From NCBI RefSeq assembly GCF_900182905.1, contig NZ_FXUF01000008.1, forward strand, positions 62,001 through 126,000: a stretch of DNA of 64,000 nucleotides, read 5' to 3'. The translations under genes were made by a program, and so were the position numbers. The DNA comes from Anoxynatronum buryatiense (GTDB lineage Bacteria > Bacillota > Clostridia > Peptostreptococcales > Tindalliaceae). Position 1 is the first letter of the stretch; every line of letters begins with the position of its first letter. The notes under the pieces were generated by a model, which was not told where the DNA came from, searched no databases, and worked only from the letters and a program-made list of their open reading frames with translations. Positions 6,707 to 64,000 of this stretch are shown piece after piece.

Positions 6707-6720
6707 AGCACGTCACAATC

Positions 6721-12223: not shown

Positions 12224-12252
12224 TTGTCAGAGACGCTGGGGTCTGTTAAAAT
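12224..12252 (+). promoter_or_regulatory. Candidate sigma-A promoter of the AEC transporter
   Basis: TTGTCA, a 17-nt spacer and TAAAAT lie 35 bases before the transporter start. The rest of the gap between 12036 and 12286 shows nothing recognisable. Confidence 0.55.
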
Positions 12253-12286
12253 GAGTTCATGACTCAAAAAGAAGGGCGTCCTGCAC

Positions 12287-48264: not shown

Positions 48265-48268
48265 CGCC

Positions 48269-49282
48269 ATGACTGTGCTTAAAAATACCCTGTTAAACTG
48301 GCGGTCATTGGAGTTGCAGCATGTACTGGCGGCACAGCGGCGTATCAGGGGAATCGTGTGGCAGACACCCCTGATTCCTGCACCACAGCTGACACAATCA
48401 GTGGAAGCGTTATCCATCCACTTAAAACTGGAATCCCTGCAATACACCGGGGCTTTCAAGTTGCGGGGCGCTGCCAATAAAATCATGGGACTCACGGAGG
48501 CTGAAAAACAGCGGGGCGTAATTACCTTCTCCACGGGAAACCATGGCCGTGCAGTGGCTTATGCGGCCCGGGAAGCCGGGGTAAAGGCAGTGGTATGCCT
48601 TTCGGAACATGTGCCGAAAAACCGGGTGGCCCTGGTGGAACAGCTGGGGGCAGTTGCAGAAGTCATGGGAAAATCCCAGGATGAGGCTGAAACCCATTAT
48701 GAGCATCTGATCAGGGAAAGAGGCTATGTGGCGGTGCCTCCTTTTGACGATCCGGCAGTCATTGCCGGCCAGGGCACGGTGGCGCTGGAAATGCTGACAG
48801 AACAACCGGAGCTGGATACTCTTCTGGTACCCCTGTCCGGCGGCGGTTTACTGGCGGGAACAGCCCTGGCGGCAAAAGCCATTAATCCCCAGATTCACAT
48901 CGTCGGTGTTTCCATTGACCGGTCACCGGCCATGCTGAAAAGTCTGAAGGCAGAAAAGCCGGTGGCCATTGAAGAACAGGAAACCCTGGCCGGATCACTG
49001 TTGGGAGGCATCGGCAGAGAAAATCACTACACCCTGCCGCTGATCCGCAAACTGGTGGATCAGCATGTGGTGGTGAAGGAAGAAGCCATTGCCGCCGGCA
49101 TGCGGTTTGCCCTCGAACATCACAGCCTGGTGATTGAAGGGGCGGCGGCTGTGGGAGTGGCGGCATTGCAACAGGGCCAGGTGGAAACCGCCGGCAGACG
49201 CATTGGCATCATTCTCAGCGGCAGCTGTGTGGAGCCTGAACAATACCTGGCACTGATGAAAGAAAACTTCAAGAAAATTTAA
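48269..49282 (+). CDS. eutB: Threonine dehydratase-like PLP enzyme (EutB-like)
   Basis: 337 residues of fold type II. The PLP lysine is in YTGAFKLRGAANKI, with STGNHGRAVAYAAREAG and the phosphate loop PLSGGGLLAG. Related enzymes are threonine/serine dehydratases; in hydroxyectoine operons EutB, with EutA and EutC, removes the hydroxyl group. It lacks the ACT domain of biosynthetic IlvA. It starts four bases after the M24 gene, so the two are tightly coupled. ridA follows, fitting the release of reactive enamines by a dehydratase. Confidence 0.82.
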   Translation: MTVLKNTLLNWRSLELQHVLAAQRRIRGIVWQTPLIPAPQLTQSVEALSIHLKLESLQYTGAFKLRGAANKIMGLTEAEKQRGVITFSTGNHGRAVAYAAREAGVKAVVCLSEHVPKNRVALVEQLGAVAEVMGKSQDEAETHYEHLIRERGYVAVPPFDDPAVIAGQGTVALEMLTEQPELDTLLVPLSGGGLLAGTALAAKAINPQIHIVGVSIDRSPAMLKSLKAEKPVAIEEQETLAGSLLGGIGRENHYTLPLIRKLVDQHVVVKEEAIAAGMRFALEHHSLVIEGAAAVGVAALQQGQVETAGRRIGIILSGSCVEPEQYLALMKENFKKI

Positions 49283-49333
49283 AAGCATTTTCAGGACAAT
49301 TTAAAAGCATTTCATGTAAGAAAGGGGCTTTTC

Positions 49334-49717
49334 ATGAACAAAAAAGCGATTCATCCATCAACGGCACCCCTGCCGGCAGGACCATACAACCATGCCATCA
49401 TCGCCAACGGCTTTGTGTTTGTCAGCGGTCAGACACCGGAATATCCGGGAACTGATGAAGTGGTGCCCGGCGGCATCAAAGAGCAGACCCATCAGGTAAT
49501 GAAAAATATTCAGGCCATTCTTGAGGCGGCCGGCAGCACCATGGCCGACATCGTAAAAGTCGATGTGCATTTGAAAGATCTGGCTGATTTTACGGAGTTC
49601 AACCAAGTCTACGGCCAGTACGTCTCTGAGCCCTATCCGGCCCGAATCACCGTGCAGAGCGTTCTTTTTGAAGATGTGCTGCTGGAGGTCAGTGTGACCG
49701 CTCTGGCCGGCGAATGA
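49334..49717 (+). CDS. ridA: RidA-family enamine/imine deaminase
   Basis: 127 residues. GPYNHAIIANGFVFVSGQTPEYP at the start and the catalytic arginine in YPARITVQ are typical of active RidA, which hydrolyses enamines formed by PLP dehydratases. It stands directly after the EutB-like gene. AAAGGGGC precedes the ATG. Confidence 0.93.
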   Translation: MNKKAIHPSTAPLPAGPYNHAIIANGFVFVSGQTPEYPGTDEVVPGGIKEQTHQVMKNIQAILEAAGSTMADIVKVDVHLKDLADFTEFNQVYGQYVSEPYPARITVQSVLFEDVLLEVSVTALAGE

Positions 49718-49723
49718 TTTCAC

Positions 49724-49749
49724 CTCCCCGGAAATCTCTTTCCGGGGAG
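49724..49749 (+). terminator. Hairpin at the end of the catabolic operon
   Basis: CTCCCCGGAAA and TTTCCGGGGAG form a perfect 11-bp stem with a 4-nt loop. There is no T tract, so it may be a processing or attenuating structure rather than a full terminator. Confidence 0.55.
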
Positions 49750-49777
49750 TACCCTTCTCTGGGAACGGGGATGAACA

Positions 49778-50695
49778 ATGATGCTGTCTGAAGAAAATAA
49801 AGGGTATCTGATGGTGGCGGCTGCCAGTGTGTTGTGGGGCACCATGGGAGTCAATGCCCAGTTTTTGTATGACAGAGGACTGGCAGCCAGCCACATCGTC
49901 TTTTGGAAGCTGGCCTTCGCCTTTCTCATCACAGCCGTCTGGATGATCTTCCGGCAGCCGGGTCTTATGGTCATCAGCCGCCGGGGACTGCTCATCACCA
50001 TGTTTATGGGATTTTACGGCCAGGCATGTTATAATGTCTTTATTTTCAACGCCATCGAATACACCGGCGTGGCCACGGCCACCATTCTGCTGTATACTTC
50101 TCCTGCATTTGTCATTCTCATGTCCCGGCTGCTGTTCAAAGAACTGCTGACCCCCCTGAAGCTGACGGCCCTGGTTCTCTGCACTGTCGGCACGGTGGTC
50201 ACCGTGACAGAGGGGCGGCTGGATCTTCTTGAAATCAACCGATACGGTGTTATGATGGGATTACTGGCAGGCTTCACTTTTGCCGTTAACACGGTGGCGG
50301 TGAAACACCTCACCCGCCGGTACAACCGCTGGACCCTGGGACTTTACTTTTTTGGATTCGGGGCGCTCTTTGCCATTCCTTTGTCTGACCCCCTGGGGGT
50401 GTTTGCCGTCAATCCGGAACCGGTGGTCTGGCTGGGATTGTTTCTTCAGGGTTTGCTTCCCACAGCCATGGGGTATGGGCTTTATATCCGCGCCTTTTCC
50501 CACGGTATTGAGGCCTCCAGGGCAGGGATCCTCACCACCCTTGAAATCATTGTGGCCGTAGGTGCGGCAGCGCTGCTGCTGGGTGACCGCCTGGGAGGCA
50601 TGAAGCTTCTGGGAATTATAATGGTGTTTTCGTCAGTGGTGATGGTACAGCCCAATCAGGCGCTTTGGAGTCGGTGGAAACGGCCGGCTGCCTGA
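49778..50695 (+). CDS. EamA/DMT-family transporter
   Basis: 305 residues with ten hydrophobic segments. MVAAASVLWGTMGVNAQFL and PTAMGYGLYIRAFSHGIEASRAGIL are typical of the family. It lies just beyond the hairpin that closes the catabolic operon; read-through could make it an exporter of an end product, but nothing in the sequence says so. The ribosome site (ACGGGGATG) is weak. Confidence 0.85.
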   Translation: MMLSEENKGYLMVAAASVLWGTMGVNAQFLYDRGLAASHIVFWKLAFAFLITAVWMIFRQPGLMVISRRGLLITMFMGFYGQACYNVFIFNAIEYTGVATATILLYTSPAFVILMSRLLFKELLTPLKLTALVLCTVGTVVTVTEGRLDLLEINRYGVMMGLLAGFTFAVNTVAVKHLTRRYNRWTLGLYFFGFGALFAIPLSDPLGVFAVNPEPVVWLGLFLQGLLPTAMGYGLYIRAFSHGIEASRAGILTTLEIIVAVGAAALLLGDRLGGMKLLGIIMVFSSVVMVQPNQALWSRWKRPAA

Positions 50696-50754
50696 AGTAT
50701 GCATGATGGATGGTTGACATGTGATGCACGGGAAGGGAAGGAGCGAAAAAATTT

Positions 50755-51297
50755 ATGACACAAGCAGTGGTGGAAAATCAACATATCCGCCTCAGACAAA
50801 CAGCGCCAGAAGACCTTGACTGGGTCATTGCAACAGAGCAGCACCCGGATAACCGGGAGTACGTGTATAACTGGCCACGAGAACGTCACCTGGCCGGCAT
50901 CGCCTCAGAGGATGAAAAACATTTCATGATCATGCGGGTGGAAGATGACTGCCCCGTTGGGTATGTCATTCTCTCGGGATTGGCCAGTGAGCATCAGGTG
51001 ATTTCCTTCGATCGAATTACCATTGCAGAAAAAGGCAGAGGTTATGGACGTCAAACCGTTCGACTGATTAAGCAGCTTTGCTTTGAAACCTACAAATGCC
51101 ACCGGTTGTGGTTGGATGTGTTTGATTTCAACCCCCGGGCCCGCCGGCTCTACGAATCGGAGGGATTTGTTTTTGAGGGAACCCTGCGGGAATGTAAGAA
51201 AAAAGGCGATGATTTTCTTTCCATGCACGTGTTGTCCATGTTGGAACGGGAGTATAGAGAATGGACACCTGTCGACGATTTTGCGACGGAGAGGTGA
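50755..51297 (+). CDS. RimJ/RimL-type GNAT acetyltransferase
   Basis: 180 residues. IRLRQTAPEDLDWVIATEQHPDN at the start, AEKGRGYGRQTVRLIKQLCF for acetyl-CoA binding and LDVFDFNPRARRLYESEGF near the end are GNAT hallmarks. The substrate is unknown. GGGAAGGAGCG precedes the ATG. Confidence 0.85.
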   Translation: MTQAVVENQHIRLRQTAPEDLDWVIATEQHPDNREYVYNWPRERHLAGIASEDEKHFMIMRVEDDCPVGYVILSGLASEHQVISFDRITIAEKGRGYGRQTVRLIKQLCFETYKCHRLWLDVFDFNPRARRLYESEGFVFEGTLRECKKKGDDFLSMHVLSMLEREYREWTPVDDFATER

Positions 51298-51387
51298 TAG
51301 GATCACTTTGGCCGACAAAAGCATGCTTCTGTCAAAAAAGCACAACGATTAAGATCGGGAAACATGAGACGTCGGCTGGCGAAAAAC

Positions 51388-51408
51388 GCGGGACGCTCTT
51401 GTTCCCGC
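51388..51408 (+). other. Small GC-rich hairpin
   Basis: GCGGGA and TCCCGC pair around a 9-nt loop with no T tract. It is the only structure seen between the GNAT gene and the fhs promoter. Confidence 0.35.
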
Positions 51409-51487
51409 CTGATGTCCGGAATGGATTGTGCTTTTTCTTTGGCAAAAGTGTCGAATTTTAAAAGTTTAGCTTGTGGCATTTTGACAA

Positions 51488-51516
51488 TTGACAAGGGACA
51501 ACGGGTATACTATGCT
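51488..51516 (+). promoter_or_regulatory. Sigma-A promoter of fhs
   Basis: TTGACA, 17 nt and TATGCT lie about 110 bases before fhs. A second TTGACA at 51481 pairs less well with TATACT (19 nt). GGTGTTCTGAATATT follows (51529-51543), similar to GGTGTTCTAATATT after the panB-like promoter. Confidence 0.65.
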
Positions 51517-51625
51517 AATGATTGAATTGGTGTTCTGAATATTATAAAAAAGCTTCTTCAGCCATTTTCACCAATAACCGCAGGCATGCGGATCATTGTA
51601 AAACGTTTACAAAAAAGGAGGATGT

Positions 51626-53305
51626 ATGATGAAAAGCGACATTCAGATTGCCCAGGAAGCAGTGCCAAAGGATATCCGGGAAATTGCGGGTAAACTGGGG
51701 TTGACGGAAGACCAGATTGACTTATACGGAAAGTACAAAGCCAAGGTGCACACTGATTTTCTGCAGGGTGAAACCAACGAAAAAAGCGCCAAGTTGATTT
51801 TAACCACTGCCATCAACCCCACACCGGCAGGTGAAGGTAAAACCACCACCACCATTGGGGTGGCTGATGCCTTGGCACGACTGGGCAAAAACACCATCGT
51901 CGCACTGAGAGAACCCTCACTGGGCCCTGTTTTCGGAGTTAAGGGCGGTGCCGCCGGCGGCGGATACGCTCAGGTGATTCCAATGGAAGACATCAACCTT
52001 CATTTCACCGGTGATCTTCATGCCATTGGTACAGCCAATAACCTGCTGGCTGCCATGATCGACAACCACATTCAGCAAGGCAATGCCCTGGGCATTGACA
52101 ACCGTAAAATCACCTGGAAACGGGCCATGGATATGAACGACCGGCAGCTGCGAAGCATGGTCAACGGCATGGGCGGCAAAGGAAACGGCGTGCCCCGTGA
52201 AGACGGCTTCGACATCACCGTTGCTTCTGAAGTCATGGCAGCCTTCTGCCTGGCCTCCACCCTCACAGACCTGAAAGAGCGCATCAGCCGTATGGTCATT
52301 GGTTATACCCGTGATGACAGACCCATCACTGCCGGCGACCTGAAAGCCGCAGGAGCCCTGACAGCCCTGCTGAAAGACGCCATCAAACCCAACCTGGTAC
52401 AAACCCTGGAAGGCACTCCCGCCTTCATTCATGGCGGCCCCTTCGCCAACATCGCCCACGGCTGCAACTCTCTGATGGCCACCCGTACCGCTATGCATTT
52501 TGCCGATTACGTGGTGACAGAAGCCGGTTTCGGAGCCGACCTGGGAGCTGAAAAATTCATTGATATCAAGTGCCGCATGGCCAATATCAAGCCAGACGCT
52601 GTCATCATCGTGGCCACCGTTCGTGCCCTGAAATCCCACGGCGGCGTGGCAAAGGCCGACCTGAACGAAGAAAATCTGGAAGCGCTTCAAAAAGGCCTGC
52701 CTAATCTGATGAAGCACGTGGAAAACATCACCCAGGTCTTTGGTCTGCCTGCCGTGGTAGCCATTAACCGGTTCCCCCTTGATACAGAAGCTGAGCTGGC
52801 AATGGTGCGGGAAGCCTGCAATGCTGCCGGCGTCAACGTGGCCCTTTCTGAAGTGTGGGCAAAAGGCGGCGAAGGCGGGGAAGAAGTAGCCAAAGAACTC
52901 CTCCGCCTCATGGAAGAAAATGATGGCAGCAACTTCAGCTATGCCTACGAAGTGGACCAGCCCATCATGAAAAAAATCGAAGCCATTGCCACCCGCGTTT
53001 ATGGTGCCAAAGACGTTGCCTTCTCAGGTGCTGCTGAAAAGGAAATTAAAAAACTGGAGAAACTGGGCTTCGGAAACCTGCCCATCTGCATGGCCAAAAC
53101 CCAGTACTCCCTGTCAGATGAACCCACCCTCATCGGCCGGCCGGAAGGCTTCACAGTCACCGTGCGCTCCATAAAAGTATCTGCCGGTGCCGGATTCCTG
53201 GTAGCCCTGACAGGCGATATCATGACCATGCCCGGACTGCCAAAGGTACCTTCTGCAGAGCATATCGATGTGGATGAAACCGGCAAAATTTCAGGCTTGT
53301 TCTAA
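51626..53305 (+). CDS. fhs: Formate--tetrahydrofolate ligase
   Basis: 559 residues, the normal length. The nucleotide loop [13 protein letters not shown] (residues 66-78) and [21 protein letters not shown] are diagnostic. It joins formate to THF with ATP, the first methyl-branch step in acetogens, or runs backwards to conserve energy in amino-acid and purine fermenters. AAAGGAGG precedes two adjacent ATGs (51626 and 51629); the second has the better spacing. folD follows after a terminator. Confidence 0.97.
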
Positions 53306-53325
53306 GCAATCGGAAATGAAAATGT

Positions 53326-53353
53326 AAAGCGGAGACACCAGTCTCCGCTTTTT
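53326..53353 (+). terminator. Intrinsic terminator between fhs and folD
   Basis: AAAGCGGAGAC and GTCTCCGCTTT enclose a 4-nt loop and run into T residues. It should reduce folD expression relative to fhs. Confidence 0.85.
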
Positions 53354-53407
53354 AACCATGAACAGGAAAATGCAAATGAACCGGAGGATGAAAAAAGGAG
53401 GATGACC

Positions 53408-54259
53408 ATGGCAACACGCTTGAAGGGAAAACCGGTGGCAGATGCCCTGTCCGCCGCCATTCGGGAAGAAGTGGATTATCTGAAACCCAAAGGGGTTCAA
53501 CCTGCCCTGACGCTGATTCGGGCTGGCGAAAAGCCGGATGATATGGCATACGAACGAGCCATTATCAAACGCTGCGAGTCGGTGGGCGTTAAGGTGAACA
53601 GCGAGGTGGTGCCGGAAAGCATCAGCCAGGCTGATTTTTTCAACCTGCTGGATACACATAATCAGGATCCGGCAGTTCATGGCATTCTGATCTTCCGGCC
53701 ACTGCCCAAACATCTGAAAGAAGAGGAAGTGCAGTACCGCATTGCACCGGAAAAAGACGTGGACGGTTTTCACCCGGTGAACGCCGGCAAGCTGCTGACG
53801 GGAGACCCCGCGGCTTTTGCCCCCTGCACCCCCATGGCAGTGATGGAAATTCTGAAGCACTATGAAGTGGCACTGTCCGGCAAACGGGCAGTGGTACTGG
53901 GGCGTTCCATGGTGGTGGGTAAGCCCGTGGCCCTGCTGCTGCTGGCAGAAAATGCCACGGTGACCATTGCCCATTCCCGCACTCAAGACCTGGAAAAAGT
54001 GACATCTGAAGCAGATCTACTGGTGGCTGCCATTGGGCGTTCAGAATTTGTGACAGCAACTCACATCAAAAAAGGTGCCGTGGTGGCAGATGTGGGCATC
54101 AACGTGGATGATGCCGGTAATTTGACTGGTGATGTGGCCGCCGCTGCTGCGGAAGAAATGGCTGAGGCGTACACACCTGTACCCGGCGGCGTGGGTTCGG
54201 TGACCACGGCTGTTTTGGCAAAACAGGTGATCAAAGCCTGCAAGCTGCAGTTGAAGTGA
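53408..54259 (+). CDS. folD: FolD-family methylene-THF dehydrogenase, probably without cyclohydrolase activity
   Basis: About 283 residues. PEKDVDGFHPVNAG, the NADP loop VLGRSMVVGKPVALLLL and PVPGGVGSVTTAVL identify FolD. Two active-site positions differ from bifunctional enzymes: after the tyrosine (Y48) the +4 position, normally the catalytic lysine, is I52 with lysine two residues later, and the QLPLP motif reads FRPLPKH, losing the glutamine. These changes suggest a dehydrogenase that needs a separate cyclohydrolase. GGAGG favours the ATG at 53408 over 53402. Confidence 0.93.
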   Translation: MATRLKGKPVADALSAAIREEVDYLKPKGVQPALTLIRAGEKPDDMAYERAIIKRCESVGVKVNSEVVPESISQADFFNLLDTHNQDPAVHGILIFRPLPKHLKEEEVQYRIAPEKDVDGFHPVNAGKLLTGDPAAFAPCTPMAVMEILKHYEVALSGKRAVVLGRSMVVGKPVALLLLAENATVTIAHSRTQDLEKVTSEADLLVAAIGRSEFVTATHIKKGAVVADVGINVDDAGNLTGDVAAAAAEEMAEAYTPVPGGVGSVTTAVLAKQVIKACKLQLK

Positions 54260-54301
54260 GAATTCGGCGACAGATCAGAAGTGAATGATGAAAGACAGGA
54301 T

Positions 54302-54334
54302 AAGAGCGGGTGATAAGTCCGCTCTTCTTTTGAT
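54302..54334 (+). terminator. Intrinsic terminator after folD
   Basis: AAGAGCGG and CCGCTCTT form a stem with a 9-nt loop followed by CTTTTG. Confidence 0.8.
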
Positions 54335-54467
54335 ATTTAAATGGCGCTTGTGTCGATAAAAGTCGCCGCTATAGCGACGAAAGTCAATCATTTTGCTTCA
54401 TCGAAAACTGAGTAGGGAATAAGAAAGTAAGCAGTAAAACTGCTACTAATAAAAAAGGAGGATAATC

Positions 54468-54755
54468 ATGCCTGAAGAAACAACAGTGCCAGAGATAAGA
54501 TTTGAGTTTGATAATGCGTTGATTCGGCAACTATTGACCATTGAAGCGCCAGAGGAACTGCAGGCCCTGTTCAAAGAAAGAGGCGTAGATGTAAGTCCGC
54601 AAGATGCAATTAAAGTGAAGCATGTAATCATGGAGGCTACATTCACTAAAGAAGGCGAAGACCTGGAAAGAGAACTATCAGAGAATGAGTTAGATCGAGT
54701 GGCGGCGGGCGGGATTGTATATATCAGACCACCTGTGATTTTCGTTGACCGGTAA
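54468..54755 (+). CDS. Putative RiPP precursor with double-glycine leader
   Basis: 95 residues. The layout is an acidic leader (residues 1-82) ending in LSENELDRVAAGG, the double-glycine pattern of Nif11- and NHLP-type leaders, then a short core IVYIRPPVIFVDR (83-95). The core has no Cys, Ser or Thr, so a lanthipeptide or thiazole product is unlikely. No modifying enzyme or peptidase-transporter is adjacent. AAAAGGAGG precedes the ATG. Alternatively it is a small regulatory protein whose end merely resembles such leaders. Confidence 0.65.
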   Translation: MPEETTVPEIRFEFDNALIRQLLTIEAPEELQALFKERGVDVSPQDAIKVKHVIMEATFTKEGEDLERELSENELDRVAAGGIVYIRPPVIFVDR

Positions 54756-54844
54756 CGCCACTATGGACAGGAGCAATAGGGAACCGGAACCCAGATAAAG
54801 GGGAGCAATCATCATTGACAAAACATACAAATAATGTTTATCGT

Positions 54845-54877
54845 GCTCATCCTTGTAACCGAGGATGGGCATTTTTA
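54845..54877 (+). terminator. Intrinsic terminator after the small precursor gene
   Basis: TGCTCATCC and GGATGGGCA pair (with one G-T) and are followed by TTTTT. Confidence 0.75.
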
Positions 54878-54949
54878 AGCATTAATTAAGAATAGCCGCT
54901 ACAGATAGAAAAAGCCAATGAAAAATGAAAAAAGCATTGAGCTAATTGA

Positions 54950-54980
54950 TTGGACGCGGCGTTTCAAGTGACAGTATAAT
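54950..54980 (+). promoter_or_regulatory. Candidate promoter of the ABC/double-cubane operon
   Basis: A consensus TATAAT follows TTGGAC with a 19-nt spacer, 49 bases before the lipoprotein gene. The -35 spacing is longer than ideal. Confidence 0.4.
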
Positions 54981-55028
54981 AACTGGTGGCACGTTAAATA
55001 AATAACCAACATTCAGAGGGGGAACACC

Positions 55029-56162
55029 ATGTTATTCAGATTAAAAGAAAAAAACATCAGGCTGGTACTGCTGCTACTGGTACTGACGCTGATGGTGGGC
55101 TGTTCAGGAAGTACTGAAGCAGATAATACCGAAATTCCGGATCTGAAAGTGGCGTATGTTTTCACCAATCACCAAACACCACTGATGGTGGCGGCCAGCA
55201 GGGCAGAAGCCTTTGAAGCAGACGGAACCTGGCTGAAAACAGTGATTGAACGGGAGCAATACGTACTGATGCAAGGCGATGAACCCATTGCCAATATTGA
55301 TTTGATTGTCAATAAAAATGGTTCTGAAACCATGACCATGATGACCCAGGGACATGTGGATCTGGCGCTGGCTTCCAGTGCCGCCTTTATCGCGGCGGTG
55401 GATAAAGGCGCAGAGCTGAAAATGTTGTGTCCGGTACACACTGAGGGGATTGGTCTTGTGATGGCCCAGGATGCTGACGTTGACAACTGGGAAGCCTTTG
55501 CTTCCATGACCCGTGAATCTGATGCACCTGTCATGGTGGGATACCATTCGCCAACCAGTGCGCCAGTGATTCTTTTTGCTGCGGCACTTGATGATGCCGG
55601 ACTCAGCTACACCAAAAATCCTGATGATGTGACAGCGGATATTTTACTGGTGGATCTCAAGGGTACCAATAATTTGCTGCCGGCATTGACCAGTCAGCAA
55701 GTGGAAGCCTGGGTGGGGCCGTCGCCTTATCCTGAGCTGGCCGTGACAGAAGGCGTTGGAAAAATGGTGCTGGATCTTCGGGAAATGCCGCCTGCAGGAA
55801 AATGGCATGATTTCCCCTGCTGTGTGGCCGGGGCGACACAAGCGGCCATTGAGAATCACGGCGAAGCGGTGGAAGCATTTACCAGACTGCTGACAGTGGC
55901 GGCAGACTATGCAGCCAATCATCCGGAGGAGGCTGCCCAAATTACCTCAGATTTTACAGGGGTGTCACTGGAAGCCGCCAGAATGTCTGAGATAAAATAC
56001 ACCACCAACCCCAGCGAAACATGGGTGACAAACCTGGGACTGGTGTATGATGTGCTGCATGAAAGTGATGGTTTGAATGAGCAGTTTGCAGATAAATCGT
56101 ATGTGGAAACCCATGATGAAATCTTTGATTTCAGCTTTATCCATTCAATTATGGGACAGTAG
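55029..56162 (+). CDS. ABC transporter substrate-binding lipoprotein (NMT1/SsuA-like)
   Basis: 377 residues. A signal peptide ends in LTLMVGC (C25 lipobox). The domain matches the NitT/TauT-type binding-protein fold, with VDLALASSAAFIAAVDKGAEL and VMVGYHSPTSAPVILFAAAL as recognisable stretches. Relatives bind sulfonates, thiamine precursors or other small organics. Here the permease and ATPase follow, then a double-cubane reductase and its activase, suggesting that the imported compound is reduced inside the cell. Confidence 0.88.
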   Translation: MLFRLKEKNIRLVLLLLVLTLMVGCSGSTEADNTEIPDLKVAYVFTNHQTPLMVAASRAEAFEADGTWLKTVIEREQYVLMQGDEPIANIDLIVNKNGSETMTMMTQGHVDLALASSAAFIAAVDKGAELKMLCPVHTEGIGLVMAQDADVDNWEAFASMTRESDAPVMVGYHSPTSAPVILFAAALDDAGLSYTKNPDDVTADILLVDLKGTNNLLPALTSQQVEAWVGPSPYPELAVTEGVGKMVLDLREMPPAGKWHDFPCCVAGATQAAIENHGEAVEAFTRLLTVAADYAANHPEEAAQITSDFTGVSLEAARMSEIKYTTNPSETWVTNLGLVYDVLHESDGLNEQFADKSYVETHDEIFDFSFIHSIMGQ

Positions 56163-56238
56163 ACAGGCATTAGCGGTAAACGATGCGTCGAGACACAATT
56201 ATTGTGGCATCAGACAGAAAACACACAGGGAGATACCC

Positions 56239-57081
56239 ATGAACAAACAATTTAAATGGACCAAATGGATGACACCGGTGATACTGCCGGTTTTCTTTTT
56301 AATCATATGGCAACTGGCGGCCGTTAAAATGGATAACCGGATGGTACTGCCCACAGTCAGTGCGGTATTGTCCATATTAGCAGAACCGACAGCTGAACTG
56401 GTCAGCATCGGTTCGCTGATTCGCAACACCTGGATCAGCCTGCTCCGGGTTGCACTGGGGTACCTGACAGCGGCGATGATTGCCATTCCGCTGGGCGTTT
56501 TCATCGGATATTCGAAAAGACTTGACCGACTGGTGATGCCCTTCCTGAGTCTTTTTCGCCCAATTGCTCCCCTGGCCTGGGTTCCCCTGGTGCTGGCCTG
56601 GTTTGGTGTCAGCAGCCTGGCCACCATGATGGGAATCAGAGGCGGTCAGTACTATTCGCTGTTGCACAATATTAAACTATCAATGATATTTATCATCTTT
56701 ATCGGAGCTTTTTTTCCAATTTTGACCAACAGCATCTATGGTGTGAAAAATGTAAAACAGACCCTTGTGGATTCAGCAAAAACCCTGGGAGCAACCAGAC
56801 GTGAAATTATGATGAAGGTTTTGTTGCCTGGGGCGCTTCCTTCAATGGTGACGGGACTACGCGTGGGACTTGGGGTTGCCTGGATGTGTCTGGTATCTGC
56901 GGAAATGCTGCCGGGAAGTCTGGCGGGAATCGGATATCTGATTACACACGCCTATACCCTCGCCCGCACAGATATTGTCATTGCCGGCATGATTTGTATT
57001 GGCCTTGTGGGCGGGTTGATGGATTTCCTGTTTTGCAAAATTGAGGATCGCTGGTTTCGCTGGCAAAAGCTTGAAAAATAG
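56239..57081 (+). CDS. ABC transporter permease (SsuC/TauC-like)
   Basis: About 280 residues with six membrane helices. The EAA-type cytoplasmic loop is DSAKTLGATRREIMMKVLLPGALPS. SLFRPIAPLAWVPLVLAWFG is typical of nitrate/sulfonate/taurine permeases. AGGGAGATACCC precedes the ATG at 56239; an overlapping earlier in-frame ATG at 56077 lies inside the lipoprotein gene and is rejected. Confidence 0.92.
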   Translation: MNKQFKWTKWMTPVILPVFFLIIWQLAAVKMDNRMVLPTVSAVLSILAEPTAELVSIGSLIRNTWISLLRVALGYLTAAMIAIPLGVFIGYSKRLDRLVMPFLSLFRPIAPLAWVPLVLAWFGVSSLATMMGIRGGQYYSLLHNIKLSMIFIIFIGAFFPILTNSIYGVKNVKQTLVDSAKTLGATRREIMMKVLLPGALPSMVTGLRVGLGVAWMCLVSAEMLPGSLAGIGYLITHAYTLARTDIVIAGMICIGLVGGLMDFLFCKIEDRWFRWQKLEK

Positions 57082-57110
57082 TGTGTTTGTGACGTTGGGA
57101 GGCTCGGTAA

Positions 57111-57863
57111 ATGATTGAAGTGCAGCGTGTATCAAAGGTCTTTCATACGGAAAAAGGACAGCGGGTATTGGCAGTCAATGATATTCAGCTGGAAATTGAT
57201 CATCAGGAGTTTGTCTGCCTGGTTGGGCCGAGCGGGTCAGGCAAATCAACACTGCTGCGGTTGATGGAAGGGTTGATTGAACCGACGGAGGGGCAGGTGC
57301 GCGTTCTTGGCGAACCGGTTCGTGGCCCCAGAAGTGACGCGGCCATGGTTTTTCAGGAGTATTCCCTGATGCCATGGAGAACTGTTCTTGATAACGTGAC
57401 CTTTGGGCTGGAATTGCGGCAAGTGAAGCGGGCGGAACAGAAAAAGCAAGCCATGGCACTTTTGCAGCGATTTGGGCTCCAAGATTTTTCTCAATGCCTT
57501 CCCTATGAACTGTCGGGTGGCATGAAGCAACGTGCGGCCATCGCCAGGGCGTTGGCTGTCTCTCCCAAAATTCTTTACATGGACGAACCCTTTGGAGCCC
57601 TTGATGCCTACACCCGTTATCAAATGCAGCAGGATTTGATTGATTACTGGGTGGCCGATAAACGGACCATTGTGTTTGTCACCCACAGTGTGGAAGAAGC
57701 GGTTTTTCTGGCCACGAGAGTCATTCTAATGAGCCCTCATCCCGGAGAAATTGTGGCTGACTACGCCATTGATCTCCCTTATCCCAGAAATCGCTGGTGC
57801 GATAAATTTGGGGCGCATTTCAAAGAGATTCTCCAGCGGTTGGATGAGGTGAGCCGTCAGTAG
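57111..57863 (+). CDS. ABC transporter ATP-binding protein (SsuB/TauB-like)
   Basis: 250 residues. Walker A GPSGSGKSTLL, Q-loop VFQEYSLMPWRTV, signature LSGGMKQRAAIARALA and Walker B ILYMDEPFGALD are intact. TGGGAGGCTCGG precedes the ATG. It energises the importer formed with the two preceding genes. Confidence 0.95.
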   Translation: MIEVQRVSKVFHTEKGQRVLAVNDIQLEIDHQEFVCLVGPSGSGKSTLLRLMEGLIEPTEGQVRVLGEPVRGPRSDAAMVFQEYSLMPWRTVLDNVTFGLELRQVKRAEQKKQAMALLQRFGLQDFSQCLPYELSGGMKQRAAIARALAVSPKILYMDEPFGALDAYTRYQMQQDLIDYWVADKRTIVFVTHSVEEAVFLATRVILMSPHPGEIVADYAIDLPYPRNRWCDKFGAHFKEILQRLDEVSRQ

Positions 57864-57938
57864 AGCGGAATCTGGCACCATTTCCATGAGAAATGGATAC
57901 AATCCATAAGAGGAAAATTTGGAAGGAGAGATGAATCA

Positions 57939-59096
57939 ATGAACAGACCGGCCATGATGGAAAAAATCGAAGAACTGCGGGGCATCAATTCAGTTAAAAT
58001 CAAGGAAGCCAGCGAAGCAGGGCGCAAGATAGTGGGGATGTACTGTGTGTTTTCGCCCCAGGAAATTGCCCTGGCGGCAGGGGCGATCCCTGTCAGCCTG
58101 TGCGGTACCAGCAATGACCCTGTAGAGGCGGCTGAAAAAGAGCTTCCCCGCAACCTCTGTCCCCTGATCAAGTCAAGCTACGGATTTGCCATCACCGATA
58201 AATGCCCGTACTTCTATTTCTCGGATATTTTGCTGGCAGAAACCACCTGTGATGGTAAGAAAAAAATGTACGAGCTCATGGGAAAATTAAAACCCATGCA
58301 TTTAATGAACCTTCCCCAGACTGCCGATGGAGAAGAAAACCTGGCCCTCTGGAAAAATGAGATGGTGCGCTTTAAAAGCTACCTGGAAGATACGCTCAAG
58401 GTGGACATTACCGAAGACAAACTGAAGGAAGCCATTAAACTGGTGAACCGGGAAAGAGAAGCCATGAAGCGGCTTCATCAGTTGAATGCTCACAAACCAG
58501 CGCCGCTGACAGGCATGGACATGATGAAAGCCCAGTGGATCAAAGGGTTTAATGTCGACAAAGAAGACGGCATTGAAATGGTGGAGCAGCTGATTCGTGA
58601 AGTGGAAGAAAATATGGATGCGCTTAAAACAGCCATGGGACAGGAAGGCCCGCGTATTCTCTTGACAGGCGTGCCGGTGGGTATTGGTTCTGACAAGGTG
58701 ATTCGTCTCATTGAAGAAGGTGGCGGCCGTGTGGTTGCACTGGAAAACTGTACCGGCTACAAAGGTTTGGATGTGTTGGTGGACGAAACCAAAGAGCCGC
58801 TGCAAGCCCTCGCCGAAAAATACCTGAGCACCCCCTGTTCATGTATGTATGATAACCAGGGACGACTGGATCTGATTGCCCGTATGGCAGCGGAGTATCA
58901 GGTTGACGGGGTGTTGGACCTCACCTGGCAGGCTTGTCACACCTACAATATCGAGTCATTCTTTGTCCGGGATTTTGTGCGTGAAGAGCTGGGTCTCCCT
59001 TTCATTCAAATTGAAACCGATTATTCAGAATCAGACGCAGGCCAGTTGAAGCTGCGTATTGACGCATTCCTTGAAACCATTGATACGAAGGCCTAA
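57939..59096 (+). CDS. Double-cubane-cluster-type anaerobic reductase (HgdB/YjiM family)
   Basis: 385 residues, a single-subunit relative of 2-hydroxyacyl-CoA dehydratases. Many conserved cysteines are visible: C36, C55, C74 (RNLCPLIKSS), C89 (ITDKCPYFYF), C104 (ETTCDGKKKM), C271, C300, C302 and C333. This pattern and length fit the proteins carrying a [8Fe-9S] double-cubane cluster, which reduce small molecules at low potential when energised by an ATP-dependent activase. It has no partner subunit, so a true dehydratase is less likely. GGAAGGAGAG precedes the ATG. Confidence 0.85.
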   Translation: MNRPAMMEKIEELRGINSVKIKEASEAGRKIVGMYCVFSPQEIALAAGAIPVSLCGTSNDPVEAAEKELPRNLCPLIKSSYGFAITDKCPYFYFSDILLAETTCDGKKKMYELMGKLKPMHLMNLPQTADGEENLALWKNEMVRFKSYLEDTLKVDITEDKLKEAIKLVNREREAMKRLHQLNAHKPAPLTGMDMMKAQWIKGFNVDKEDGIEMVEQLIREVEENMDALKTAMGQEGPRILLTGVPVGIGSDKVIRLIEEGGGRVVALENCTGYKGLDVLVDETKEPLQALAEKYLSTPCSCMYDNQGRLDLIARMAAEYQVDGVLDLTWQACHTYNIESFFVRDFVREELGLPFIQIETDYSESDAGQLKLRIDAFLETIDTKA

Positions 59097-59100
59097 CAGC

Positions 59101-59136
59101 AGCGATCAGGCACACTTAAGCGATCAGGCACACTTA
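59101..59136 (+). repeat. 18-bp tandem duplication
   Basis: AGCGATCAGGCACACTTA occurs twice in tandem between the reductase and activase genes. Confidence 0.95.
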
Positions 59137-59195
59137 AAAGAAGTGCCACAAGACAGGAACTAATGAAGAAAACATTTCAGAAAGAAGGGGTTGGC

Positions 59196-59984
59196 ATGTA
59201 CGCCGTTGGAATCGATATTGGCTCCACTGTCACAAAAGGCGTTCTCATGACAGATGGCATTGTGACAGGCACCCATCGCCTGCCCACCGGCTGGAGCCCC
59301 AGGGAGACTGGCCGACGCGTCCTTGCTGACCTGCTGGCACGGCATCAGGTTTGCCCGGGGGAGGTCCAGCAAATTGTGGCCACTGGCTATGGGCGTCAGA
59401 CAATGGAGGAGGCCCATCGAAAAATCACAGAAATTACCTGCCATGCCCGGGGAGCTTACCATATCAATGCAGCCGTGAGAACGGTCCTTGACATCGGCGG
59501 GCAGGACAGTAAAGTGGTTCGCCTGGGTGACCGGGGGCAGGTGGTGGACTTCATCATGAATGATAAGTGTGCGGCCGGCACAGGCCGGTTTTTACAGGTG
59601 ATGGCCACCCAGATGGAAGTGGATGTCAGCCAGCTGGAAGAACTGGCAGCAGAAGCAAAACCCGTACAACTGAACAACATGTGTACGGTTTTTGCCGAAT
59701 CAGAGGTGGTGGGGCTTTTAGCATCTGGAGCCTCCAAAGCCAGCATCGCCGCAGGGCTGCTCACCTCTGTCGCCAGTAAAATCTGCACCCAGGCCCAACG
59801 GGTGGGTGTGGTGGAAGACGTGTTTTTTTCGGGAGGCCTGGCAGAAATCGGCTACCTGAAAAAAGTCATCCAGGAGAAACTGGGAGTACCGGTTCATCAA
59901 TCACATTTGGCACAATATACAGGGGCCATCGGGGCTGCGCTGTCAGGAATGGCATCACTGGAACCGGCCGGCAAGGAGCAATGA
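59196..59984 (+). CDS. ATP-dependent activase of the double-cubane reductase (HgdC/YjiL family)
   Basis: About 262 residues of the ASKHA fold. VGIDIGSTVTKGVLM and VLDIGGQDSKVV are the nucleotide-binding elements; NDKCAAGTGRFLQ and NNMCTVFAESEVVGLL hold the two cysteines that bridge a [4Fe-4S] cluster across the dimer. It would drive ATP-dependent electron transfer to the preceding protein. AAGGGG fits the ATG at 59196; an in-frame ATG at 59163 is an alternative. Confidence 0.9.
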   Translation: MYAVGIDIGSTVTKGVLMTDGIVTGTHRLPTGWSPRETGRRVLADLLARHQVCPGEVQQIVATGYGRQTMEEAHRKITEITCHARGAYHINAAVRTVLDIGGQDSKVVRLGDRGQVVDFIMNDKCAAGTGRFLQVMATQMEVDVSQLEELAAEAKPVQLNNMCTVFAESEVVGLLASGASKASIAAGLLTSVASKICTQAQRVGVVEDVFFSGGLAEIGYLKKVIQEKLGVPVHQSHLAQYTGAIGAALSGMASLEPAGKEQ

Positions 59985-60040
59985 ATAACTTCCGGAAAAC
60001 GACGGCCTTCATCATAAGATTGTGGTCTTTTTAACAAATG

Positions 60041-60069
60041 TTGTCAAATTCTGAAAATTAGAGTACAAT
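60041..60069 (+). promoter_or_regulatory. Sigma-A promoter of the gcv operon
   Basis: TTGTCA, a 17-nt spacer and TACAAT precede the glycine riboswitch by about 30 bases. Confidence 0.7.
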
Positions 60070-60098
60070 AAAGGGGAAAAATGCATCACATAACCGAA

Positions 60099-60312
60099 TG
60101 AAGGTCACGGGAGATCTCTGAATGACAAGGAGAGCCGAAGAAGCAATATACCGGACTGGACCCCTGGTATAGAATCTTTCAGGCAACAGGATCGTGGCTG
60201 GACGGGACTCTGGAAAGTTCCCCGGGGAACGCCGAAGGGGCAAGGTGAAAACAGTGGCGAATGATGCCGAACACCGTTTTCTCAGAAACTCTCAGGCCTG
60301 ATAACAGAGGAC
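60099..60312 (+). promoter_or_regulatory. Tandem glycine riboswitch
   Basis: Two aptamer-like halves are visible. The first has GGGAGATCTCTG, GAGAGCCGAAGAAGCAA and TTTCAGGCAACAGGA; the second has GGGACTCTGG, CGCCGAAGGGGCAAG and AACTCTCAGGC-TGATAACAGAGGA. These are the conserved segments of gcvT-type aptamers. It sits between the promoter and gcvT and fills most of the gap 59985-60446. Glycine binding should control the terminator that follows. Confidence 0.92.
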
Positions 60313-60357
60313 ATGCTGACACCATCACCAAGTGATGGGTTTGTGTGTCCTTTTTTC
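60308..60357 (+). terminator. Riboswitch-controlled terminator
   Basis: AGGACA/TGTCCT and ACACCATCAC/GTGATGGGT form a long stem followed by TTTTTT. Its left arm begins at the end of the second glycine aptamer, so ligand binding can compete with it. Confidence 0.8.
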
Positions 60358-60446
60358 ATGCCGATTTGAGGGTTGTCTGTTTAATGATTCACATGAATGA
60401 GGCAGTGATTTACGGGGTATGGTAGGAAATAGAGAGGAGGCGCGTT

Positions 60447-61559
60447 ATGGAAGAATCAAGAAAGACACCGTTGACGGACTGGCACGCAGCCAATGGCGGT
60501 AAAATGGTGGTCTATGCCGGCTGGGAAATGCCGGTACAGTATGAGGGGCTCGTTGCTGAGCACAATGCCGTCCGTGAGCAGGCCGGCATGTTTGATGTGT
60601 CACACATGGGCGAGGTACTGGTGGAAGGACCGGAGGCACTGGCATATTTGCAAAAGCTGCTGACCAATGATTTTTCAGCCATGGTCAATGGCGAGATTCT
60701 CTACACCATGATGTGTTACCCCAACGGAACCGTGGTGGATGATCTGCTGGTGTACCGGTATGAGTCTGACCGGTACCTGCTGGTGATCAACGCCGGCAAT
60801 GTGGATAAAGATGTGGCCTGGATGCAGGAGCAGGCAGCCGGATACCAGGTGAGTCTCACCAACCAGTCTTCGGAGACAGGTGAACTGGCCCTTCAGGGGC
60901 CTCTGGCAGAGGAAGTTTTACAGTTGCTGACAGATACCGACCTTTCAGAAATCGGCTTCTTTCATTTCAGGGATCACGTGGCCATTGCAGGCGTGCAGTG
61001 CCTGGTTTCCCGCACCGGGTATACCGGTGAGGACGGGTTTGAGGTATACACCCCCTGGAATGAACTGGAGAAAGTATGGGTGGCCATTATGGAGGCCGGT
61101 GCATCCAAAGGAGTCAAACCGGCTGGCTTGGGGTGCCGTGACACCCTGCGCTTTGAAGCCGGGTTACCCCTGTACGGGCATGAAATCTCCGACAGCATCA
61201 CCCCGCTTGAAGCGGGACTGGGATACTTTGTCTCCCTGAAAAAAGAGGATTTCATCGGCCGGGAAGTGCTGGCTCAACAGAAGGAGCAAGGGCCGCCCCG
61301 AAAGCTGGTGGGCTTCGAACTCATTGAAAGGGGCATTGCCCGCAGTGACTATGAGGTGCTGCTTAATGGTGAAAAAATCGGCTTTGTCACCACGGGTTAT
61401 TTATCTCCCACACTGAATAAAAACGTGGGACAGGCCCTGGTGGACAGGCAAAAAGTGGCAGGTGCCGAAACGCTGGAAGTTCAGATTCGAAACAAACAGG
61501 TGAAGGCAAAAATCGTGAAACTGCCCCTCTATCGGAAGAGAACCAAGGCCCGGGGATAA
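60447..61559 (+). CDS. gcvT: Glycine cleavage system T protein (aminomethyltransferase)
   Basis: 370 residues. [38 protein letters not shown] and the folate-domain [13 protein letters not shown] are GcvT signatures. It transfers the methylene group from lipoyl-bound aminomethyl to THF, releasing ammonia. AGAGGAGGCG precedes the ATG. Confidence 0.97.
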
Positions 61560-61650
61560 CTCCCAGGTTCTATCAATAATCATCAACATCAATCAACATC
61601 AGGCACTACCAAAGAAAACCCCAAAAACATGAAAATGAGGAGGACTGAAC

Positions 61651-62034
61651 ATGAGAGTGATGAAAGACCTGCTGTTTACCAATGAGCACGAGTGGGTGGA
61701 TGTACAGGGAGAGGAAGCCTATGTGGGACTGACAGAGTTCGCATCAAAAGCGCTGGGAGACATTGTGTTTGTGGAACTGCCGGAAGTGGATGAAGAGTAC
61801 AGCGCCGGCGATTCCTTCGGAGTGGTGGAATCTGTAAAGGCTGCTGCAGACATGTACATGCCCCTGGACGGCGTTGTGACTGAAATCAACACTGAACTGG
61901 AAGATGACCCGGGTCAGATCAATCAGTCACCGCTGGAAAACTGGTTCCTGAAATTTAAAATCACCAACAAAAGCCAGCTGGATGAACTGATGACACCCGC
62001 TGATTATGAGCGTTTCTGTGAAGAGGAGGCATAA
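61651..62034 (+). CDS. gcvH: Glycine cleavage system H protein
   Basis: 127 residues. The lipoylation site is [10 protein letters not shown] (K63), flanked by the usual GVVESVKA. It carries the aminomethyl group between P, T and L proteins and depends on LipB/LipA, also in this window. GAGGAGG precedes the ATG at 61651. Confidence 0.97.
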
Positions 62035-62035
62035 T

Positions 62036-63382
62036 ATGTTTCCATATATTCCCCACACCGAAGAAGATGTGAAATACATGCTGGATACGCTGGGGATGAA
62101 AGAGCTGGAAGAACTGTTTGCCGACATCCCCAAAGAAGTGCGTCTTGGCCGGGAGCTGAACTTGGAGGCACCGAAGTCAGAGCTGGAAGTCCAGCGGCTG
62201 ATGAATGGCCTGGCAAACAAAAACAAGCCCACAGGCGAGCTTTTAAGCTTTCTGGGAGCCGGTGCCTATGACCATTACATTCCCACGGTGGTGAAACACA
62301 TCACCGGCCGGTCGGAATTCTACACCGCCTACACCCCTTACCAGGCTGAAATCAGCCAGGGAACCCTGCAGGCCATCTTTGAATTTCAGACCATGATTGC
62401 CAACCTCACCGGGATGGATCTTTCCAATGCCTCCATGTATGACGGCTCCACAGCCACGGCAGAGGCGGCAGCAATGGCGGGAGATGCCACCCGGCGCAAG
62501 GAGATTCTTATTTCAGAGACCGTGCATCCGGAAACCCGCCAGGTACTGAACACCTATGCTCATTTCAATGGACTGAAAGTGGAAACGGTGCCCGCAGCAG
62601 CAGGTGTCACCGATCTTGAAAAGCTCAAGACCATGATCAGCAAAGAAACAGCCGGTGTCATTCTTCAGACACCCAACTTCTTTGGGATTATCGAAGAAGT
62701 GGAAGAAGTCGAAAAAATGATTCACGAAGTCAAGGGTCTGCTCATTATGAATGTGGATCCCATTTCCCTGGGCATTCTGAAAGCACCGGGCGACCTGGGT
62801 GCCGACATTGTGGTGGGTGAAGGCCATGCCATGGGGAATCCCATGAGCTACGGCGGCCCCTACCTGGGATTCATGGCCGCCACCACCAAACTGATGCGCA
62901 AGATGCCCGGCCGCATTGCCGGCCAAACCACCGATATTGAAGGCAAAACGGGCTATGTGTTAACCCTGCAGACCCGGGAGCAGCACATCCGCCGTGAAAA
63001 GGCCACCTCCAACATCTGCTCCAACCAGGCGCTGAACGCCCTGGCAGCGTTGGTGTATATGTCGGTGCTGGGTAAAAAAGGCATTCAGGAAGTGGCGCGC
63101 CAATCTTACAAAAAAGCCCATCATGCCCTGACGGAAATTGAGAAGGTGACAGGCTTTAAAAGAACCTTTGACAAACCTTTCTTCAAAGAATTTGCAGTAC
63201 AGGTGCCCACATCACCGGCAGCTGTTAACGAAGCCCTTTTGAAAGAGGGAATTCTGGGCGGGTATGAACTGGGGAAACATTATCAGGATCAATCCAACAG
63301 CCTGCTTTTCTGCGTGACAGAAAAACGCACCCTGGATGACATCCAGCGGCTGGTGAAAGGTCTGGAGGTGGCAAAAGCATGA
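62036..63382 (+). CDS. gcvPA: Glycine dehydrogenase (decarboxylating) subunit 1
   Basis: 448 residues, the N-terminal half of the split P protein found in Firmicutes and other groups. [34 protein letters not shown] and [23 protein letters not shown] are characteristic. AAGAGGAGG sits at the gcvH end, and the ATG begins one base after its stop codon, so translation is coupled. Confidence 0.97.
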
Positions 63383-64000
63383 AAGAATACACCAAATTAC
63401 TGTGCGACATTACAAAACCCGGCAGAACCGGATACCGGCTGCCGCCAGATGAACTGAAAGACATGGAGGTGGAGAAGGGAATTCCCGCCGGCATGCTGCG
63501 GCAGGATGAACCCGCATTGCCTGAGGTGAGTGAAGTGGATGTGATTCGCCATTTTGTCAACCTCTCCCAAAAGAACTTCGCCATCGACAAAGGCTTCTAC
63601 CCCCTGGGTTCCTGCACCATGAAATACAATCCCAAAATCAATGAAGACATGGCGGCGCTGGCTGGCTTTGCCAATCTGCACCCTTATCAGCCGGAAGAAA
63701 CGGTTCAGGGAGCCCTTCAGCTGATGTATGAACTGGATGAAATGCTGGCGGAAATCACCGGAATGGAGCGGGTAACCCTTCAACCGGCAGCCGGTGCCCA
63801 CGGCGAAATGACCGGTCTGATGATCATGAAGGCTTATCATGAAAGCCGTGATGACCACAAACGAACCAAAATCATTGTGCCGGATTCAGCCCATGGCACC
63901 AATCCTTCCAGCGCTCAGGTGGTGGGTTTCGATGTGGTGGAAATCAAGTCCGACAAAAGCGGCAACGTTGACATTGAAAGCCTGAAGGCTGCCCTGAGTG
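63379..64000 (+). CDS. gcvPB: Glycine dehydrogenase (decarboxylating) subunit 2, 5' part
   Basis: The ATG overlaps the gcvPA stop (ATGA). The frame is open to the end of the window, showing about 207 residues of a protein normally near 480. [19 protein letters not shown] and [17 protein letters not shown] are typical of GcvPB. The PLP lysine lies beyond the window. The L protein gene is not seen. Confidence 0.96.

Follow-up and report, generated by a model that had tools for sequence, protein, structure and literature searches.

An NMT1/NrtA-type ABC importer encoded beside a double-cubane-cluster reductase in Anoxynatronum buryatiense recurs with the reductase and with selenium genes

We analyzed a window of 64,000 nucleotides from Anoxynatronum buryatiense (contig NZ_FXUF01000008.1, positions 62,001 to 126,000; coordinates below count from the first letter of the window). 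Positions 55029–59984 contain five genes, all on the + strand, that encode the lipoprotein, permease, and ATPase of an ATP-binding cassette (ABC) importer, a double-cubane-cluster protein (DCCP), and an activase:

55029..56162, + strand: substrate-binding lipoprotein (substrate-binding protein, SBP) of the NMT1/NrtA type, 377 amino acids (PF13379; AlphaFold2 model)
56239..57081, + strand: ABC permease (PERM), 280 amino acids (PF00528)
57111..57863, + strand: ABC ATPase (ATP), 250 amino acids (PF00005)
57939..59096, + strand: double-cubane-cluster reductase (DCCP), 385 amino acids, 9 cysteines (NF040772, PF06050, 6eno/7yyl)
59163..59984, + strand: activase (ACT) or DCCP reductase, an HgdC-like ATPase, 273 amino acids (TIGR00241, PF01869)

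The five consecutive open reading frames (ORFs) described in an initial annotation of this stretch were all recovered at their coordinates on the + strand. Homology places the start of the permease at the ATG at 56239, and the mechanical ORF start at 56077 was set aside. The genes are separated by gaps of 76, 29, 75, and 66 nt, in that order, and none of the four gaps contains a terminator-like site on the + strand. Promoter-like and terminator-like sites were counted at levels near those of shuffled sequence (11 vs 7.0 and 12 vs 6.8, respectively). This layout is best explained if the five genes constitute a single module. An 18-bp sequence occurs twice in direct orientation between the DCCP gene and the activase gene (59102–59137, + strand).

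The reductase scores 525.6 bits against NF040772 (double-cubane-cluster-containing anaerobic reductase; cut-off 350) and 410.8 bits against the Pfam family HGD-D (PF06050). Residues 10–381 align with 6eno and 7yyl (E 3e-80 to 4e-80), which we take to be structures of the DCCP of Carboxydothermus hydrogenoformans. The protein contains exactly nine cysteines (positions 36, 55, 74, 89, 104, 271, 300, 302, and 333). Eight of them align with cysteines of 6eno/7yyl, as expected for a double-cubane cluster, and are present without exception in the homologues aligned (136 of 136) and in YjiM of the Escherichia coli pair YjiM/YjiL; the ninth, C302, is kept in 102 of the 136 (77 of 108 close rows and 25 of 28 distant rows). 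These homologues, nearly all distinct at 98% identity, were collected by similarity to the window DCCP, so their invariance confirms the family and adds little more. The ORF list of the window contains no second HgdA/B-type subunit next to DCCP. The activase gene begins 66 nt past the DCCP gene, and its product exceeds the cut-off for TIGR00241 (255.6 bits; cut-off 125.4) and matches PF01869 (BcrAD_BadFG ATPase). The initial annotation of an HgdB-like protein with at least nine cysteines and no partner subunit, accompanied by an HgdC-like activase, is borne out by these results. As judged from sequence, the reductase and activase are genuine members of the known double-cubane family. They share this family with the C. 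hydrogenoformans pair by NF040772 and a full-length match, and an activase stands alongside in both; the ABC importer is the extra element in the window.

In C. hydrogenoformans, the activase passes electrons to the double-cubane cluster of DCCP with ATP (PMC11971306, PMC7306483). DCCP reduces acetylene, hydrazine, and azide, and a 2025 structural paper describes the biological function of archetypical DCCPs as unknown (PMC11971306). Our survey also revealed a second DCCP type (DCCP2) of ~424–450 amino acids that is 36–40% identical to the window DCCP. It occurs in the selenium clusters of L166, L167, and L144 and also in L201 (L numbers denote mapped loci; G numbers denote sampled genomes, G000 being that of the window). 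DCCP2 sometimes lies beside the first type, and the distant rows of the alignment, 28 of 28, retain all eight cysteines (L201 is not among these rows).

The SBP matches NMT1_2 (PF13379) with 112.5 bits, above the gathering threshold of 24.7, and its subfamily reaches no NCBIfam cut-off. It scores below the cut-offs for SsuA_fam (TIGR01728, aliphatic sulfonate binding; 70.5 bits, cut-off 163.5) and SaoX (31.8 bits, cut-off 300), and it gave no match to the putative selenate importer model TIGR04553 at E up to 0.01. The best NCBIfam model for the permease (BPD_transp_1, PF00528), which is 46–72% identical among importer loci, is SaoP (160.4 bits, below the cut-off of 295). For the ATPase (ABC_tran, PF00005), a taurine-type model ranks first with 237.8 bits and SaoA second with 234.5 bits (cut-off 360), both below cut-off. 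These scores assign the importer to the NMT1/NrtA type and to no curated subfamily, neither Sao nor SsuA.

The AlphaFold2 model of the SBP was generated from 16 sequences and has a predicted local distance difference test (pLDDT) score of 89.1. Its nearest fold neighbors by Z score, with values within 1 of each other treated as tied, are a CmpC-type regulatory domain (9uai, 32.5), the zinc-containing Staphylococcus aureus protein 3un6 (31.6), NrtA (2g29, 31.1), and CmpA (2i48, 30.1). SsuA and TauA, which together with NrtA had been suggested as the proteins to compare, lie further away (~27). The SBP thus resembles the NitT/TauT (NMT1) binding proteins NrtA, CmpA, SsuA, and TauA and the 3un6 protein in fold, whereas sequence identity in the top 15 fold alignments is only 13–17% and the SsuA_fam cut-off is missed. 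A sequence search of the PDB with the SBP returned nothing usable, and its profile gave weak matches to 2x7p, 3un6, and NrtA. Given this set of neighbors, fold alone names no ligand. Positions invariant in 16 of 16 aligned SBPs include G24-C25 of the lipobox, H48, W259, and the adjacent cysteines C264 and C265. The region of H48, C264, and C265 may form a site for a soft ligand. No in-frame TGA that would encode selenocysteine (Sec) was reported inside the SBP matches searched.

We compared the distribution of the importer with that of DCCP, calling DCCP present when the score exceeded the NF040772 cut-off. In a sample of 299 genomes of the phylum, the SBP subfamily was called at E 1e-20 with a profile of six importer-linked SBPs (A1); a profile of 16 rows (A2) was used for relatives of the window genome. 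The subfamily is present in 16 of the 299 genomes, which span ten family codes. DCCP is present in 89 of the 299 and in 15 of the 16 importer genomes (Fisher p 6e-8, kinship ignored). G083, the only importer genome without an over-cut-off DCCP, is a 450-contig draft with the importer on a 3.4-kb contig. Among 60 relatives of the window genome, the importer occurs in eight, all of which contain DCCP, versus 26 of the 60 (p 6e-4). Of the genomes in the window's own family, importer and DCCP are both present in three and both absent from four (p 0.03). When the 357 genomes are pooled, DCCP is found in 22 of 23 importer genomes versus 114 of 357 overall (p ~5e-11).

SsuA_fam served as a control importer in 40 genomes with DCCP and 40 without, taken nearly first by number in each class with no random draw. 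It exceeds its cut-off in 13 of 40 and 8 of 40, respectively (p 0.15); the window-type SBP is present in 7 of 40 and 0 of 40 of the same genomes. A search of 50 of the 80 named DCCP genomes revealed the SBP in seven, and in three of these (L023, L036, and L201) it is contiguous with DCCP. These 50 genomes may share species with the numbered genomes and were therefore not pooled with the 357. The coupling of importer and reductase proposed in the initial annotation is real and exceeds chance. Importer genomes almost always contain DCCP, whereas most DCCP genomes have no importer; this pattern suggests that the importer is an optional feeder for the reductase and not a fixed partner. We found no description of such an importer beside DCCP in the searchable literature, which did not extend to the key DCCP structure and SAO papers.

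The association extends to local gene order. Importer and DCCP lie in one cluster in 12 of the 23 importer genomes (G000, G043, G228, G113, G077 with a partial DCCP, G132, G263, G102, G261, G354, G301, and G302). The exact order SBP-PERM-ATP-DCCP-ACT is rare: of the mapped loci, the window and L036 (from a bin of Desulfoscipio geothermicus) alone have it, and it is the pairing of importer with DCCP that recurs, in other orders. SBP-PERM-ATP-DCCP is seen in L112, L113, and L183. DCCP-ACT-SBP-PERM-ATP is seen in L023, L142, and L143, as well as in L145, where an IS110 transposase (11407–12720; 227.5 bits, cut-off 140) is inserted between the permease and ATPase. The arrangement is divergent in L146, and in L184 and L185 it reads DCCP-SaoATECXBP-SBP-PERM-ATP. 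L144 (Moorella thermoacetica DSM 21394) has the order SBP-PERM-Mlp-DCCP-YedE-YedF-like-DCCP2-ACT with no adjacent ATPase of the window type. In a second phylum, represented by the Desulfobacteraceae metagenome-assembled genome (MAG) L201, a 38%-identical type-2 DCCP is followed directly by SBP-PERM-ATP.

We constructed a tree of 84 DCCPs, thinned from 146 rows and without L201 and the partial DCCP of L143. The 12 importer-linked rows are scattered over the tree and show no clustering relative to shuffles. The importer label changes 11 times, and seven of these changes are forced by well-supported branches. The scatter implies that the pairing was made or lost many times, with losses indistinguishable from gains on this tree. 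It could be argued that the five genes are neighbors by chance, since few loci share the exact order and no importer lies beside DCCP in its nearest named relatives (Alkalithermobacter, Alkaliphilus, and most Tissierella-type loci). The counts already disfavor this view, which we regard as hardly credible: DCCP co-occurs in 22 of 23 importer genomes, the two cluster in 12 of 23, and the pairing appears again in a second phylum.

L147 (7744–8940) of G261 contains the SBP and an adjacent DCCP only as fragments, close to YedE and a YedF-like match; the locus may be a decaying copy of an SBP-DCCP pair. In L188 (6515–14126) and L192 (6205–13818), two DCCPs flank a different ABC importer that consists of a 382-amino acid lipoprotein-like protein, two permease-like proteins, and a 528–537-amino acid ATPase. 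This importer is presumably similar to those of the nucleoside/BMP type.

Both importer and DCCP are associated with selenium genes. Seleno-YedE exceeds its cut-off in 22 of the 23 importer genomes versus 146 of 357 overall, and SelD is present in 23 of 23. YedE is also found in 77 of 114 DCCP genomes versus 69 of 243 others (p 2.5e-12). Of the phylum sample, 60 genomes contain YedE as well as DCCP; in 11 of these the two lie within 10 kb of each other, versus ~0.6 expected on a crude genome-length basis. Selenium genes also adjoin importer-DCCP clusters. The set in L113 is adjoined by SelB (285.7 bits, cut-off 242.25) and YedE (496.9 bits, cut-off 200). The L145 cluster is followed by YedF (213.3 bits, cut-off 110) and by a cysteine desulfurase of the Sec-lyase-like kind (TIGR01977, 510.4 bits, cut-off 377), and L112 contains a Sec-lyase-like gene that is truncated where the contig ends (TIGR01977, 394.1 bits, cut-off 377). 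In L144, YedE scores 491.8 bits (cut-off 200) and the short YedF-like gene 43.6 bits, below its cut-off of 110.

Other DCCP clusters show the same company. By blastp, L166 reads YedE-YedF-DCCP-ACT-DCCP2-SecLyase-SelD-YedF. In L167, a putative selenate ABC importer (4255–6729; TIGR04553, 347.8 bits, cut-off 250) adjoins DCCP2-ACT-SecLyase-YedE together with YedF, neighbors that were likewise assigned by blastp. In L165 (7043–9453), an importer of the polar-amino-acid type, with cystine- and lysine-type matches below cut-off, lies between YedE and YedF-like/DCCP/SelD. A lenient blastp screen detected a selenium or Mlp marker in 21 of 86 DCCP loci. Some of these rows are weak (SelD 26% in L054; Sec-lyase 26% in L048), several involve Mlp only, and cysteine desulfurases can match the Sec-lyase seed; we therefore rely on the counts from curated models. 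No tRNA-Sec was found near DCCP in the 86 loci examined.

The window organism itself decodes Sec, as SelA, SelB, SelD, and tRNA-Sec are found in one genome. Locus L162 on its contig C3 carries SelA (600 bits, cut-off 267.9), SelB (390.1 bits, cut-off 242.25), tRNA-Sec, and SelD. The SelD gene has one in-frame TGA, and the part after the TGA scores 365 bits (cut-off 125). Contig C1 carries a Sec-lyase-like gene, YedE, and a short YedF-like gene.

Published work points in the same direction. A preprint ties DCCP provisionally to selenium metabolism and places it in mlp clusters (PMC10418091). In Slackia heliotrinireducens, the genes that a 2015 survey associated with selenium genes include a '2-hydroxyglutaryl-CoA dehydratase subunit' and a 'CoA-substrate-specific enzyme activase' (PMC5322559). 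Mlp-like genes adjoin DCCP in L144, L067, L053, and L115, as in the type 1 mlp gene clusters of the preprint (PMC10418091). The Mlp-like gene of L144 encodes a methyltransferase-corrinoid protein of the MtaA/MtgC type, with matches below cut-offs. The window differs from the type 1 clusters in that no Mlp-like gene was noticed in its module; conversely, the accessible sections of PMC10418091 mention methionine transporters once and no importer of the window kind. In the accessible parts of the literature, any dedicated selenium importer is described as unknown.

We tentatively favor, at somewhat less than an even chance, the view that the module takes up a small selenium compound and releases the selenium from it by reduction. 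The cargo of the importer would then be the substrate of DCCP, would contain selenium, and would undergo reductive release. The SBP would capture a small soft-element compound, most probably an organic or oxidised form of selenium, and the ABC importer, as its family suggests, would move the compound into the cell. By homology to the C. hydrogenoformans pair, the activase is predicted to supply the [8Fe-9S] cluster of DCCP with low-potential electrons in an ATP-driven reaction, and DCCP could then reduce or cleave the imported compound and free selenide. Selenide may then be converted to selenophosphate for Sec through YedE, YedF, the Sec-lyase-like enzyme, and SelD; the genes for these steps are present, and flux through them is probable in this scheme.

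It is tempting to speculate further that the importer has high affinity and feeds a DCCP that cleaves C-Se (or Se-heteroatom) bonds at a nitrogenase-like potential. Such a pathway dedicated to organic selenium is possible, if doubtful. It would supply a physiological role for at least one DCCP branch and the first dedicated selenium importer. Because the importer recurs with DCCP and selenium genes, both the function of DCCP and selenium import can be tested with one SBP and one two-protein enzyme.

The initial annotation proposed a small nitrogen- or sulfur-containing organic compound as substrate. The neighboring and co-occurring genes suggest selenium metabolism and the selenocysteine-assisted organometallic (SAO) system instead. 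A cargo such as a sulfonate, a methylthio compound, a nitrile, or similar, reduced by DCCP, would fit the fold relatives of the SBP (NrtA, CmpA, SsuA, and TauA) and the acetylene, hydrazine, and azide reduced by DCCP (PMC11971306); in addition, the Mlp-type methyltransferases that adjoin some DCCPs have been linked to methyl-sulfur chemistry (PMC10418091). However, the association we observed is with selenium genes, and no sulfonate, taurine, nitrile, or nitrogenase-like gene was recognized in the mapped importer clusters, a weak negative as neighbors were identified mostly by eye or with limited seeds. We consider a cargo of this kind improbable.

The SAO system was described by Haft and Gwadz in 2023 (cited in PMC13188914 and PMC10418091). 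Sec-containing forms of SaoX, SaoB, SaoP, and SaoC are listed in a 2026 review, which implicates most transporter selenoproteins of this kind in resistance to metals or metalloids (PMC13188914). In G301, a member of the window's family, a collinear run of DCCP-SaoA-SaoT-SaoE-SaoC-SaoX-SaoB-SaoP is followed by the window-type SBP-PERM-ATP. All seven Sao proteins exceed their cut-offs (SaoA, 407.7 bits; SaoT, 135.2; SaoE, 489.7; SaoC, 145.0; SaoX, 431.3; SaoB, 316.1; SaoP, 295.5), whereas the window-type importer beside them fails the Sao cut-offs. G302 has the same ORF layout, and SaoX, the one Sao gene scored there, reaches 437.9 bits (cut-off 300). The presence of both importers side by side indicates that the SAO importer and the window importer are not the same thing. 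In L034 (4683–18786; a Desulfotomaculaceae MAG), YedF-like, YedE, and SelD-DCCP2-DCCP1-ACT are followed by a full SAO set that includes the MerB-like SaoL.

These SAO genes beside DCCP and the importer make an organometal cargo the strongest rival to selenium. The window importer could be a compact cousin of the SAO importer that brings in a thiophilic organometal (for example organomercury or organoarsenic) for reduction by DCCP, and the selenium genes would then co-occur because SAO-type systems use selenoproteins. SaoX occurs in 6 of the 299 phylum genomes, all 6 of which contain DCCP (p 6e-4). The nearest named permease model for the window importer is SaoP and the second-nearest ATPase model SaoA. 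A 12-sequence alignment included five SaoX or SaoX-like proteins. Three of these carry a Cys-Cys pair where the window SBP has it, a fourth retains a single Cys, and SaoX of G301 lacks both. Near the position of window H48, a Cys is present in all five. On the other hand, the SBP, permease, and ATPase of the window score below the SaoX, SaoP, and SaoA cut-offs, and 14 of the 16 importer genomes in the phylum sample lack SaoX. The window genome contains no SaoX at E 1e-60 (other Sao genes were not searched there), and the link to YedE (22 of 23) is wider than that to SAO. On balance, an organometal cargo appears rather unlikely; should it prove correct, the module would nonetheless define a class of substrates for DCCP.

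Several observations weigh against release of selenium from an imported compound. No selenium gene adjoins the window module, which is flanked by fhs-folD and by the glycine riboswitch-gcv set, and genomes of the window's own family place the importer with SAO genes, read as organometal handling. The Cys pair of the SBP is also present in the S. aureus 3un6 protein and is therefore no selenium signature. SelD is common anyway (198 of 299 phylum genomes and 52 of 60 relatives), importer genome G322 lacks YedE, and YedE is absent from 37 of the 114 DCCP genomes. None of the co-occurrence p-values is corrected for relatedness. At a loose threshold of E 1e-20, the control SsuA_fam is itself enriched with DCCP (31 of 40 vs 22 of 40; p 0.03); with G056 and G077 removed, as their listed hits are the window-type or Sao SBP, the counts are 29 and 22 (p 0.08).

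Finally, the importer lies away from DCCP in 11 of the 23 importer genomes (G042, G056, G063, G083, G134, G198, G239, G322, G337, G344, and G352), on short contigs in G083, G042, and G198. The initial annotation had raised the prospect of an importer lying elsewhere while reductase and activase stay together; G344 and G352, in which DCCP and activase are together with no importer beside them, fit this description, and the 12 clustered genomes do not. This separation would be expected if the importer on its own supplied selenium to SelD and DCCP served another selenium- or redox-related purpose, such as disposal of a methylated or toxic by-product, without acting on the imported molecule. Most DCCP genomes lack the importer and both associate with YedE, as such independent selenium-trait genes might. 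Against their independence, a single one of the 23 importer genomes, the 450-contig draft, has no over-cut-off DCCP, and physical pairing is repeated in different orders. We judge this explanation quite improbable and retain selenium release by DCCP as the favored, still tentative, reading.

The one-carbon genes that flank the module were considered as part of it and rejected. No convincing match to fhs, folD, or gcvT/H/P was found in the 80 named DCCP loci, many of which are incomplete (the one GcvPA match, at 22%, is in L067), so these neighbors are not counted in the module. Among mapped loci, fhs lies near DCCP in L186 only. Downstream of the module, a glycine riboswitch (60094–60258, + strand; RF03166, 70.9 bits, below the gathering threshold of 110; E 2.7e-13) precedes gcvT-gcvH-gcvPA. 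An Rfam scan of positions 48000–64000 gave one further match, weak and sub-threshold, and none upstream of the importer. Between folD and the importer, a 95-amino acid ORF (54468–54755, + strand) shows a weak match to a Nif11-like leader peptide (22.0 bits, cut-off 32.3).

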